Translations under genes and position numbers: made by a program
Source of the DNA: an uncultured Pelagibacteraceae bacterium
GTDB lineage: Bacteria; Pseudomonadota; Alphaproteobacteria; Pelagibacterales; Pelagibacteraceae
Assembly (NCBI GenBank): GCA_902566705.1
Contig: CACFJT010000003.1
Coordinates: 59,286 to 123,285, forward strand
Reading direction: 5' to 3'
Length of the DNA: 64,000 nt
Shown: in pieces, positions 15,159 through 19,214 of the stretch
Layout of the letters: each line of letters begins with the position of its first letter
How positions within the stretch are numbered: the first letter of the stretch is position 1
Notes under the pieces: model-generated
Databases searched by the model: none
The model's input: only the letters and a program-made list of their open reading frames with translations
What the model was told of the DNA's origin: nothing

Positions 15159-15195
15159 TGCGATTGATAATCATTCGCATTGAGAATAATTCTCA
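15159..15195. promoter_or_regulatory. Tandem Fur/iron-box-like palindromes
   Basis: TGCGATTGATAATCATTCGCA (15159-15179; 9 of 10 arm pairs symmetric) followed by TGAGAATAATTCTCA (15181-15195; perfect arms), 35 bp upstream of the iron ABC gene. Confidence 0.75.
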
Positions 15196-15229
15196 TTCGC
15201 AAACAATTTAGGGTAAAGATAAGGACAAA

Positions 15230-16258
15230 ATGAAAAAAGTAACACTTTTGGCATTATTTGCATCTTTAATAGTTTCATCTTTTGTAACTGCTAATGAGGT
15301 AAATATTTTCAATGCCAGACACTATAAAGCTGATAACGAACTTTATAGCAAATTTACTGAAAAAACTGGAATTAAAGTAAATTTAATAAACGGAAAAGCT
15401 GGTGCATTAGAAAAAAGAATTATAGAGGAGGGTGCTGACTCTTTAGCAGATCTTTATATTACTGCTGACGCAGGTAGATGTGGAGCATTTAAGGCTAAAG
15501 GAATGACACAAAGTGGTCTAGTGTCTCCAACAATTAAATCATCAGTTCCAAAAAGTTTTAGAACTACACACTGGGTTGGAGTAGCTAAAAGAGCTAGAAT
15601 AATTTATTACTCACCAGAGAGAGTAACTGGAGCTGAATTATCAGGACTTACCTACGAAGGCTTAGCTGATCCAAAATGGAAAGGCAGATTAGTAATTAGA
15701 AAATCAAGTAACATTTACAATAAGTCACTGGTAGCTTCATTAATTGAAAATAATGGCAAGAAGTCCGCTGCAGAATGGTCTAAAGGAGTGGTTGCAAATA
15801 TGGCAAGAACACCAAAAGGAAATGATAGAGCCCAAATTATGGCAGTTGCAGCCGGAGAAGCTGATATTGCTGTAGCTAATACATACTACTTAGCACTTAT
15901 GTTATCTGGTAACAAAGGAGCAGAACAACAAGCTGCTGCAAAAAAAGTCAAAGCATTTTTTCCTAATCAAAATGACAGAGGAACACATATGAATATTAGT
16001 TGTGCAGCTTTAGTTAAAGGAGCACCTAATAAAGCAAATGCAATTGCACTTGTAGATTTCTTATTATCACCAGAAGCTCAAGAACATTTTACAAACAATA
16101 CTTTTGAGTTTCCAATGATAGCTGGTGTATCTCCAAATCCATTGGTAGTAAATAATTTAGGATTAGATTTTAAACAAGATCTAACAACTAAAGTTTCAAG
16201 CTACGGAAAAAATCAAGCAGCAGCATTAGAGGTAATGACAGCGGCTGGGTGGAAGTAA
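15230..16258 (+). CDS. Ferric iron ABC transporter substrate-binding protein (FutA/FbpA type)
   Basis: Signal peptide; EVNIFNARHYKADNELYSKFTEKTGIKVN; ADLYITADAGR. Confidence 0.88.
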   Translation: MKKVTLLALFASLIVSSFVTANEVNIFNARHYKADNELYSKFTEKTGIKVNLINGKAGALEKRIIEEGADSLADLYITADAGRCGAFKAKGMTQSGLVSPTIKSSVPKSFRTTHWVGVAKRARIIYYSPERVTGAELSGLTYEGLADPKWKGRLVIRKSSNIYNKSLVASLIENNGKKSAAEWSKGVVANMARTPKGNDRAQIMAVAAGEADIAVANTYYLALMLSGNKGAEQQAAAKKVKAFFPNQNDRGTHMNISCAALVKGAPNKANAIALVDFLLSPEAQEHFTNNTFEFPMIAGVSPNPLVVNNLGLDFKQDLTTKVSSYGKNQAAALEVMTAAGWK

Positions 16259-16265
16259 GGAACAA

Positions 16266-16460
16266 GTGAAAAAAAATTTATTTGATTTTAATTTAAGTAT
16301 TTCTCAAAATAACAGTAGTTCACTCGAAGGTCAGATAACTTGTGAACCGTGTTTGTCTGAGTGTGAAAAAATTAAAAAAAAAATAAATAATAGAAAATTA
16401 TCAGAGATCAAAAATAATGATATTGATCGTGTCATTAATGTTTTTGGTTTAAAAGATTAA
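16266..16460 (+). CDS. Small Cys-motif protein inside iron ABC operon
   Basis: 64 aa ORF, GTG start 7 nt after the binding-protein stop, CEPCLSEC motif. Confidence 0.55.
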   Translation: MKKNLFDFNLSISQNNSSSLEGQITCEPCLSECEKIKKKINNRKLSEIKNNDIDRVINVFGLKD

Positions 16461-16469
16461 TTTTCAAAA

Positions 16470-16518
16470 AGTGAACATAATTCAATAGTTATTTACCCTA
16501 CTATTGATTATGTTCACT
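16470..16518 (+). promoter_or_regulatory. Strong intra-operonic hairpin with loop complementary to the downstream translation-initiation region
   Basis: GTGAACATAATTCAATAG / CTATTGATTATGTTCAC (17 bp with one bulged T); 12-nt loop TTATTTACCCTA. Confidence 0.8.
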
Positions 16519-16534
16519 GAAACAAAAGGGTAAA

Positions 16535-18163
16535 ATGTATTTTAATAAAATAAATATTTGGTTTTTGTTTTCTTTGTTGGTATCAATTTTTGTTGCTATA
16601 CCAATCGTAACCGTATTTACAAGTTTTTTTGAGGATACATCGAATTATTATCAAATTCTAAAAGATACTTTTTTATTTGAATATATTTTTAATTCATTAA
16701 TTTTGCTGGTTGGTGTTTTAGTTTTAACCTTTTTTATTGGAACTAGTACAGCTTATCTAGTCTCTTTTTATAAATTCCCTTTAAGTAATTTTTTTAAATG
16801 GGCTTTGATATTATCTTTTGCAGTACCTCCATACATTTATGCTTATTCTTTAACAGCTTTCTTTGAAAATTATGGAACTTTATATTCGATATTGAAAAAT
16901 GTATTCGGAGAAGCAAATTATAACCAAAGCATCCCAAAGTTTGATGGTTTAATAGGCGCTGTACTTTCGCTATCTTTTTCACTATTTGCTTATGTTTATA
17001 TTCTCTCAAGAGCATCATTTCAGTATCAATCTCAAAATCTAATTGATTTAGGTAGAAATTTAGGATTTTCTAAAATGAAGTCCTTTTATTCTTTAATATT
17101 GCCAGCAGCCAGACCTGCAATCGTTGCAGGTCTTTCTTTGGTAGCGATGGAAACTTTAGCTGAATTTGGAGCAGTTGATTTCTTTTCTATAAATACCTTA
17201 ACTACGGGTATTTACAATTCTTGGATCACTTTTGATGATTTAGCTTTCTCAAACAGGATATCTTTTTTTCTTCTTTTATTCATTTTTGCAGTATTCATTT
17301 TAGAAAATTTATCTAGAAAAAAGGCAAGGTACCATTCAAGTACAAAAGGTGGATTTAAACAAAAAGAAAAAATTCAACTTTCAGGAGCAAAAGCATTTTA
17401 TGCATTTTCATTTTGTTTTGTTGTTTTCTTTTTAAGTTTTTTATTTCCACTAAGTCAAATGTTATATTGGACTTTAAAGTTTCCAGAAAATCTTTTCGAT
17501 ATACCGGTCATTACTTTGACATTAAATACACTTTACTTGGTGTTATTATCGAGTTTAGTTTTAATAACTTTTTCTTTAATTTCTAATTATGGAAATAGAG
17601 TTTCAAAAAATAATACCTTAAATGCTTTGTCTACTTTATCTATCTCAGGTTATGCTATTCCAGGAGTAATCTTAGCTGTAGCTTTTATAACTTTTATAGC
17701 CTGGTTTGATGACAACGTAGTTAAAGCGCTAGGCTTTTTATCTGTTAAAAAAATATTTATTGGTTCTATACTTGGTTTAGTTCTTGTTTATTTTATTAGG
17801 TTCTATTCTTTAGCTTTTAATGGAATAAAATCTGGATACGAAAAAATAAATATTTCAGTTGATGAAAGTTCATACCTACTTGGTTATTCTAAAAAAAAGA
17901 CATTCATGAATATTCATATACCCTTCTTAAGAAAATCTCTGTTATTTGTAGGAATTCTTATTTCCTTAGAAATAATAAGAGAACTACCGATCACCTTGAT
18001 TTTAAGACCTTTTAATTTTGAAACATTCGCTACTACTGCATATATATCTGCCTCCGAAGACTTGCTAGAAGCTGCAGCCGTACCTTCATTATTTTTAATT
18101 CTTATTGCAAGTTTTTTTATAATGCTTACATCTAAATATATTTTGAGGGATAATGAGCAATAG
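16535..18163 (+). CDS. Iron ABC transporter permease (FutB/FbpB-type, fused duplicate)
   Basis: 542 aa, two permease halves (EFGAVDFFSINTLTTGIYNSW; ELPITLILRPFNFETFATTAY). Confidence 0.9.
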   Translation: MYFNKINIWFLFSLLVSIFVAIPIVTVFTSFFEDTSNYYQILKDTFLFEYIFNSLILLVGVLVLTFFIGTSTAYLVSFYKFPLSNFFKWALILSFAVPPYIYAYSLTAFFENYGTLYSILKNVFGEANYNQSIPKFDGLIGAVLSLSFSLFAYVYILSRASFQYQSQNLIDLGRNLGFSKMKSFYSLILPAARPAIVAGLSLVAMETLAEFGAVDFFSINTLTTGIYNSWITFDDLAFSNRISFFLLLFIFAVFILENLSRKKARYHSSTKGGFKQKEKIQLSGAKAFYAFSFCFVVFFLSFLFPLSQMLYWTLKFPENLFDIPVITLTLNTLYLVLLSSLVLITFSLISNYGNRVSKNNTLNALSTLSISGYAIPGVILAVAFITFIAWFDDNVVKALGFLSVKKIFIGSILGLVLVYFIRFYSLAFNGIKSGYEKINISVDESSYLLGYSKKKTFMNIHIPFLRKSLLFVGILISLEIIRELPITLILRPFNFETFATTAYISASEDLLEAAAVPSLFLILIASFFIMLTSKYILRDNEQ

Positions 18164-19214
18164 CTATTTAGAGATAAAAAATGTTGATTTTACAATAAGT
18201 GGGAAGACTAAAGTCAAGAACGCATCTTTCGTAATTGAAAACGAGGGAGATACTTTATGTATTTTAGGCCCATCAGGAATTGGAAAGACAACAATACTAA
18301 GAACTATTGCTGGTTTAGAAAAAATTGAAAAAGGTACAATTAAACTAAACGGTAAAATATTATCTTCCAAAGATCAAAATGTAGAGCCTGAGGATCGAAA
18401 TATATCCTTAGCTTTTCAAGATAATAGTTTGTTTCCACATTACACAGTTGAAAAAAATATTTTATTAGGTGCTGAAAGAAATCAGGGTAAAAGAAAAAAA
18501 AAACTTAGCTTTAAGGAGATAGTAGATTTTCTTCATATAGAACAAATTTTAACAAAATACCCGCATGAAATTAGTGCTGGAGAAGCTCAAAGAGCTTCAC
18601 TTGCTAGATCACTTTTAACACAACCTGATCTCTTGCTTTTAGATGAGCCATTATCAAATGTTGATCAAAGTTTTAAAGAGGAGATACAAGTAAAATTAAA
18701 AAAAATATTAAGTAAATTGAAGATTACAACAATTATAGTGACTCACGACTCATACGAAGCTTTTTACCTTGGACACAAATGTGCAATTGTATTAGATGGT
18801 CAAATTAAACAGTTTGACGATCCTTATAATGTTTATCATTTTCCAAACTCTGAAGAAGTAGTTAATTTTTTAAATAGAGGTATTTTAATTCCTGCAAAAG
18901 TTACAGGAGAAAATTCATTAGAAAACGAAGACCTAGGAACAATTAAAGGCAATTTCATTAAGCATTATCCAAAAGGATCAAATGTAAAATTATTATTACA
19001 GCCAGAAGATCTTGAGCATGATGATAAGAGCAATCTAAAATTAGAGGTGGTTGATAGAAAATTTAGAGGTACAAACTTTATTTATACTTTAAAAACGAAC
19101 AGCGATTTACTTATACCAGTTTTTGTTCATTCCCATCATGAACACCAACACGAAGCAGATGAGAAGTTTGGAATAAAAAGACCGATTCATATTGATCACA
19201 TAGTTTGTTTTTAA
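18153..19214 (+). CDS. Iron ABC transporter ATP-binding protein
   Basis: GPSGIGKTT, SAGEAQRASLARSL, LLLLDEPLSNVD. Confidence 0.93.
   Translation: MSNSYLEIKNVDFTISGKTKVKNASFVIENEGDTLCILGPSGIGKTTILRTIAGLEKIEKGTIKLNGKILSSKDQNVEPEDRNISLAFQDNSLFPHYTVEKNILLGAERNQGKRKKKLSFKEIVDFLHIEQILTKYPHEISAGEAQRASLARSLLTQPDLLLLDEPLSNVDQSFKEEIQVKLKKILSKLKITTIIVTHDSYEAFYLGHKCAIVLDGQIKQFDDPYNVYHFPNSEEVVNFLNRGILIPAKVTGENSLENEDLGTIKGNFIKHYPKGSNVKLLLQPEDLEHDDKSNLKLEVVDRKFRGTNFIYTLKTNSDLLIPVFVHSHHEHQHEADEKFGIKRPIHIDHIVCF

Follow-up and report, generated by a model that had tools for sequence, protein, structure and literature searches.

A potC-like hairpin at the sfuC-sfuB boundary of a SAR11 iron-uptake operon carries a loop complementary to the sfuB ribosome-binding site

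SAR11 bacteria dominate the surface-ocean bacterioplankton. The stretch of SAR11 (Pelagibacteraceae) genome analysed here, 64,000 nucleotides in length and referred to as the window, carries an operon for iron uptake with the gene order LysR regulator, sfuC, a 64-aa ORF, sfuB, sfuA and azlC, and a long hairpin lies between the small ORF and sfuB. The question raised by this locus is whether the hairpin is simply the end of the upstream message or whether its loop acts on the leader of sfuB, of sfuC, or of both. The order sfuC-sfuB-sfuA-azlC is also listed for Ca. Pelagibacter ubique HTCC1062 (PMC2864753). In HTCC1062, in which the hairpin type may differ, mRNA increased 16-fold for sfuC, 10-fold for sfuB and 5-fold for sfuA under iron limitation, while SfuC protein was up to 27-fold higher (PMC2864753); with the same reservation about hairpin type, this stepwise mRNA induction is in keeping with an expression step at the sfuC/sfuB boundary. 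Moreover, SfuC is a proposed marker of iron limitation at sea, and proteomics hinted at post-transcriptional control that was left unexplained (PMC2864753). Our literature search turned up no data on small RNAs or start sites at the sfuC-sfuB locus. The features of the locus are as follows.

15160..15201, + strand: Fur-box-like inverted repeats upstream of sfuC, a probable iron-responsive promoter (sequence pattern)
15209..15217, + strand: leader element TAGGGTAAA, conserved in the window clade; it complements the hairpin loop together with the A that closes the stem
15221..15225, + strand: AAGGA, probably the true Shine-Dalgarno sequence of sfuC (judged from the sequence)
15230..16258, + strand: sfuC, fbpA-type periplasmic ferric-iron binding protein (Pfam SBP_bac_6/8)
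16266..16460, + strand: small ORF of 64 aa with a GTG start and C-x2-C-x3-C, kept in most Pelagibacteraceae relatives
16470..16518, + strand: potC-like hairpin, 19-bp stem with one bulged base (fold prediction, covariation, potC models)
16490..16499, + strand: loop TATTTACCCT, with the core TTTACCCT complementary to both copies of AGGGTAAA (predicted fold, conservation)
16519..16526, + strand: 8-nt linker from the stem to the sfuB Shine-Dalgarno sequence, the steric minimum length for a 19-bp H-type pseudoknot
16527..16534, + strand: AGGGTAAA, Shine-Dalgarno sequence and spacer of sfuB, loop-complementary (sequence, conservation)
16535..18163, + strand: sfuB, ABC permease (Pfam BPD_transp_1)
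18153..19214, + strand: sfuA, ABC ATPase (Pfam ABC_tran)

Among PDB entries, SfuC matches iron-binding proteins such as 2pt1 (E=6e-88), and a Pfam search of the 64-aa ORF gave no match. The Fur-box-like region is 0.96-1.00 identical in most relatives, in which coding identity is just 0.77-0.84; from the sequence of these repeats, we infer that their regulator is iron-responsive.

The hairpin and its relation to potC RNA

The predicted fold of the hairpin has a free energy of -21.8 kcal/mol (z = -4.9), indicating that it is non-random, and in this fold the loop spans 16490-16499 while A16500 pairs with T16489 to close the stem. Among 19 distinct sequences, six stem pairs have two-sided changes and the observed covariation scores were reached by no shuffle; when the stem and the loop-Shine-Dalgarno helix are taken together, 98.4% of the alignment cells are paired. 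The region from the hairpin to the Shine-Dalgarno sequence is ~0.92 identical among relatives compared to 0.77-0.82 for coding DNA. The hairpin is present at one locus per genome, any second hit being the antisense of its own palindrome, which excludes a dispersed or mobile repeat. An intrinsic terminator is excluded in the window lineage, in which the stem is followed by GAAACAAAAGGG rather than a U-run, and a terminator scan of the window did not list 16470-16518. Near the site, Rfam also gave DicF and mir-203 below cut-off, and these matches were judged to be chance.

potC RNA (RF01751) is a cis-regulatory candidate from a 2010 survey, in which it is listed as exclusively marine (Weinberg et al. 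2010, PMC2864571). The window hairpin matches the Rfam model with 30.4 bits (E=1.5e-4 for 201 nt searched), thus missing the gathering cut-off of 44 bits, and a search of the window-clade loci L112-L118 with RF01751 reported nothing at E<=0.5. A model built from potC sequences only (R1), from which the window hairpin and L109 were excluded, matches 16469-16519 at E=0.0018 in 298 kb, with the next best match in the window at 0.31; it also matches most window-clade hairpins at ~1e-3 in 298 kb and L109 at E=1.1e-5. Above-threshold potC RNAs occupy the equivalent slot in the orthologous operons of L050, L057 and L075. More generally, among 397 Pelagibacterales genomes, 26 potC matches are in Pelagibacteraceae and all of these lie directly 3' of sfuC, mostly after the small ORF, while a 27th match, which is sub-threshold and from a different family, lies elsewhere than the sfuC locus. 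The gene 3' of the potC RNA is sfuB in some lineages, and in others a peroxiredoxin-like gene has been inserted before sfuB; because potC matches precede either gene, sfuC and the small ORF upstream are the constant partners in this sample and the downstream gene is the variable one.

Window hairpin and potC RNA are alike in their position after sfuC and the small ORF in marine SAR11 and in having a long hairpin with a conserved loop, UUUACCC(U) in potC RNA. They differ in that potC RNA has an outer stem, an internal loop and a separate inner stem, whereas the window hairpin has a shorter continuous 19-bp stem with a single bulge, and in that a loop-complementary sfuB Shine-Dalgarno sequence accompanies the window hairpin but not proper potC RNAs. 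L109 and L258 are intermediates that combine potC-like outer stem bases with a AAGGGTAAA sfuB site. Because of the shared slot, the match to the potC-only model, and these two intermediates, we regard the window hairpin, on comparative sequence grounds, as a divergent potC-family element even though it failed the formal cut-off.

Two further arrangements were observed at this slot. The peroxiredoxin-like gene, recognised by eye from its FSLPGAFTPTCS motif, separates the hairpin from sfuB in L084-L088, L093, L095, L096, L098, L099, L106, L108 and L136. In L103, L104, L105 and L107, the sfuB start codon is only a few nt from the base of the potC hairpin and there is no recognisable Shine-Dalgarno sequence.

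Complementarity of the loop to the sfuB ribosome-binding site

TTTACCCT in the loop is complementary to AGGGTAAA at 16527-16534 in the Shine-Dalgarno region of sfuB. We compared the loop, the sfuB site and the leader at the loci of ~170 relatives. The UUACCC loop core is near-invariant wherever the element occurs, with a partner or without, and every full window-type hairpin has an sfuB site that complements its loop over 6 to 9 bp, with one G-U pair in L123. In the window clade, the TTTACCCT loop is unchanged in 47 of 47 loci and the Shine-Dalgarno octamer is altered in one; the match is also present in lineages with only 69% SfuC identity. The outer pair of the helix has two-sided changes, to C-G in L230 and to A-U in the L134/L257/L259 group. 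The covariation score of the loop-Shine-Dalgarno helix was equalled by 14 of 500 shuffles, but a single edge pair contributes to this score and slid controls score similarly; because six of the eight pairs are fully or nearly invariant, most of the helix gives no covariation signal. Of note, most of L199-L266 came from a search model with the Shine-Dalgarno columns included, and this inflates the loop-Shine-Dalgarno association, and statistics on related genomes count shared ancestry. In L128, L159 and L160, which lack the hairpin, the leader motif is preserved, and at two of the three loci the sfuB site has drifted to GGGCAAA. These three loci have lost both the small ORF and the hairpin, and sfuB begins within ~18 nt of the sfuC stop codon.

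Our working hypothesis, which we advance tentatively and at somewhat less than even confidence, is that a potC-family hairpin at the operon boundary uses its loop to pair with the sfuB ribosome-binding site and thereby lowers permease translation. Specifically, the hairpin would end the sfuC-small-ORF segment of the iron-regulated operon and so mark where the abundant binding protein gives way to the permease; in the window lineage, the UUUACCCU loop would pair with the AGGGUAAA ribosome-binding site of sfuB in the same mRNA, and this pairing would repress sfuB, lowering translation of the permease relative to the binding protein. A boundary role, in which the hairpin may protect or end the sfuC message, fits with the relatives L073, L127, L129 and L131, because these have U-tailed intrinsic terminators at the equivalent place. 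A conserved loop complementary to a downstream Shine-Dalgarno sequence, as found in the window hairpin, is also what characterises pseudoknots that sequester such sequences. If the window loop pairs with the downstream Shine-Dalgarno sequence, the topology would be that of the H-type pseudoknots of the SAM-II and SAM-V riboswitches, both of which are found in SAR11 (PMC2704228); the window element differs in being operon-internal, in its 19-bp stem, in showing no sign of a ligand pocket, and in that its pairing is predicted. With a potC variant at the sfuC-sfuB boundary whose near-invariant loop has a partner at the start of sfuB in the window lineage, the orphan motif would become a testable hypothesis on how the ratio of binding protein to permease is set.

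Two sets of observations delimit this hypothesis. First, in a simple A-form calculation, a 19-bp H-type pseudoknot needs a linker of at least 8-9 nt, compared to 8 nt in the window and 7 nt in some relatives. In L255, the stem and the Shine-Dalgarno sequence are separated by ~1 nt, and with such a linker a cis pseudoknot could form only if the lower stem opened. On this geometry, the short linkers call for caution and would speak against the simplest cis pseudoknot model. Second, proper potC RNAs keep UUACCC with no complementary partner at the start of sfuB or of the peroxiredoxin gene, and with grouping at 98% identity there are 26 loop-bearing groups without an sfuB match. Because the loop persists in proper potC RNAs that lack any complementary site in the vicinity, pairing with the Shine-Dalgarno sequence is not the core function of the potC family, and the loop must have, or have had, another role in the wider family.

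The sfuC leader element and alternative explanations

The alternative that survives best, unlikely as we consider it, is that the hairpin only ends, stabilises or helps to process the sfuC-small-ORF message and that the matches of its loop to sfuB and to the leader are side effects of a Shine-Dalgarno-like sequence. This would explain why a hairpin is at this slot in nearly all relatives, whichever of sfuB or the inserted peroxiredoxin gene lies downstream, and it agrees with the U-tailed terminators of the four relatives above and with the potC types that keep the UUACCC loop without a partner; however, it leaves unexplained both the invariant loop and the matching, edge-compensated sfuB site that accompanies each full window-type hairpin. 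Intergenic hairpins located 3' of binding-protein genes, such as REP-like stabilisers and internal attenuators, likewise lie between binding-protein and permease cistrons, but the window hairpin differs from these in its invariant loop, which complements the flanking leaders, and in its single copy per genome.

The original prediction assigned the loop a second target, the sfuC leader, on which a processed hairpin fragment or long-range pairing could in principle act together with the sfuB leader. The sequence relation itself is as predicted: TAGGGTAAA at 15209-15217, placed 12 nt before the sfuC ATG at 15230, is an exact 9-nt complement of TTTACCCTA at 16492-16500, and the sfuC and sfuB leaders have the loop-complementary element AGGGTAAA in common. 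All nine complementary bases had been assigned to the loop; eight of these are single-stranded in the predicted fold, whereas A16500 belongs to the stem. TAGGGTAAA was found twice against 0.92 expected per window, and the second copy is the antisense of the loop. At 45 window-clade loci, the diversity of the leader octamer is 0.017 compared to 0.169 for the adjacent spacer and 0.168 for four-fold sites.

Beyond the window clade, the expected conservation of the motif in orthologous operons is found in part. AGGGTAAA is present in the leaders of the window clade, of L229-L231 and L255 (~69% SfuC identity) and of L260, and with one change in L123; among the ~170 loci compared, it is absent from the hairpin-bearing lineages L109, L134, L232, L233, L253, L254, L261 and L262 and from L257-L259. 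Conversely, L128, L159 and L160 retain the leader motif despite the loss of the hairpin and the small ORF. In L072 and L076, the 9-mer is missing from the leader and there is a shifted 8-nt match instead. SfuC of these two loci groups with a potC-type relative with modest support in the sfuC tree; apparently, sfuC and its leader were exchanged with a potC-type lineage while the hairpin and sfuB are still window-type. After collapsing the loci to 36 lineages, the leader motif is associated with the sfuB motif (Fisher p = 0.003) and shows no association with the loop (p = 0.43). The loop change in L230 is matched at the sfuB site and unmatched in the leader motif, and the sole two-sided change of the loop-leader helix, at the outer pair in L229-L231, is a single clade-level evolutionary event. 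In L255, the loop is carried by an unrelated stem and matches the leader over 9 nt.

Dissociations of the type seen in L128 and L072 first suggested, at 80 loci, that the leader motif is independent of the hairpin, a conclusion then weakened by the triads of leader motif, loop and sfuB site in L229-L231 and L255. We conclude from these comparisons that the shared leader element is real and non-trivial, while the evidence does not establish that the loop acts on the sfuC leader as proposed: motif and hairpin dissociate, and the loop-leader association is unsupported. A fragment could possibly act on the sfuC leader, and the conserved leader element, its co-occurrence with the sfuB motif, the match in L255 and the outer-pair change in L229-L231 would all agree with control of both leaders; nevertheless, the many hairpin-bearing lineages without the leader motif, the three hairpin-less lineages with it and the single origin of the two-sided change lead us to consider dual control improbable. 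Similarly doubtful is a version in which the anti-Shine-Dalgarno loop pairs in turn with the ribosome-binding site of sfuB and with the leader of sfuC, making it an RNA that sets the ratio of binding protein to permease; if true, the orphan potC family would gain a post-transcriptional role in SAR11 iron uptake.

A third alternative is that AGGGUAAA in both leaders is a shared site for an RNA-binding protein or for ribosome recruitment, and that the loop competes for or mimics this contact. This would account for the leader motif tracking the sfuB motif better than the loop and for both motifs surviving the deletion of the hairpin in L128; we nevertheless consider it very unlikely, as the candidate protein is putative and the motif also serves as the ordinary Shine-Dalgarno sequence of two unrelated genes, CoaBC-like and betaine-homocysteine methyltransferase-like (named by eye from their N-termini).

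To what extent are these matches special within the genome? In a sample of 435 gene leaders of 35 nt each, covering ~41% of the genome, exact AGGGTAAA is present in three leaders compared to 0.46 expected, and two of the three are those of sfuC and sfuB. By duplex energy with the loop, sfuC ranks 3 and sfuB ranks 5 of the 435; of 300 shuffled loops, not one equalled the real loop in matching both leaders. These tests of complementarity are post hoc; the ranking gains support because the loop, the Shine-Dalgarno sequence and the leader are conserved in the window clade. Chance, in the form of a short Shine-Dalgarno-like match in an AT-rich genome, is already unlikely from the comparative sequence data and in our estimate highly improbable: the motif is short, its selection was post hoc, and GGG with A-rich spacers is frequent in Shine-Dalgarno sequences, but loop, Shine-Dalgarno sequence and leader are conserved, both leaders rank near the top of the sample, and the match recurs in diverged lineages.

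In the same ~41% of the genome, a search for AGGGTAAA near gene starts gave no sign of an iron regulon; a broad RyhB-like regulon is excluded within this sample, as the motif lies near sfuC, sfuB and a few non-iron genes. The window hairpin resembles iron-responsive sRNAs (RyhB, PrrF, NrrF) and 3'UTR-derived sRNAs in its iron-regulated context and its exposed, C-containing loop, but differs from RyhB, PrrF and NrrF in having no set of motif-bearing iron-protein targets and in being known here from DNA alone.

Finally, hairpins with a different loop were observed at the same position. In L130, L135, L138, L139, L143, L145 and L163, the loops contain TCTCC or CTCCTT, resembling the anti-Shine-Dalgarno sequence of 16S rRNA, and in most of these lineages a conserved TATAAGGCGGATTATAA precedes sfuB.
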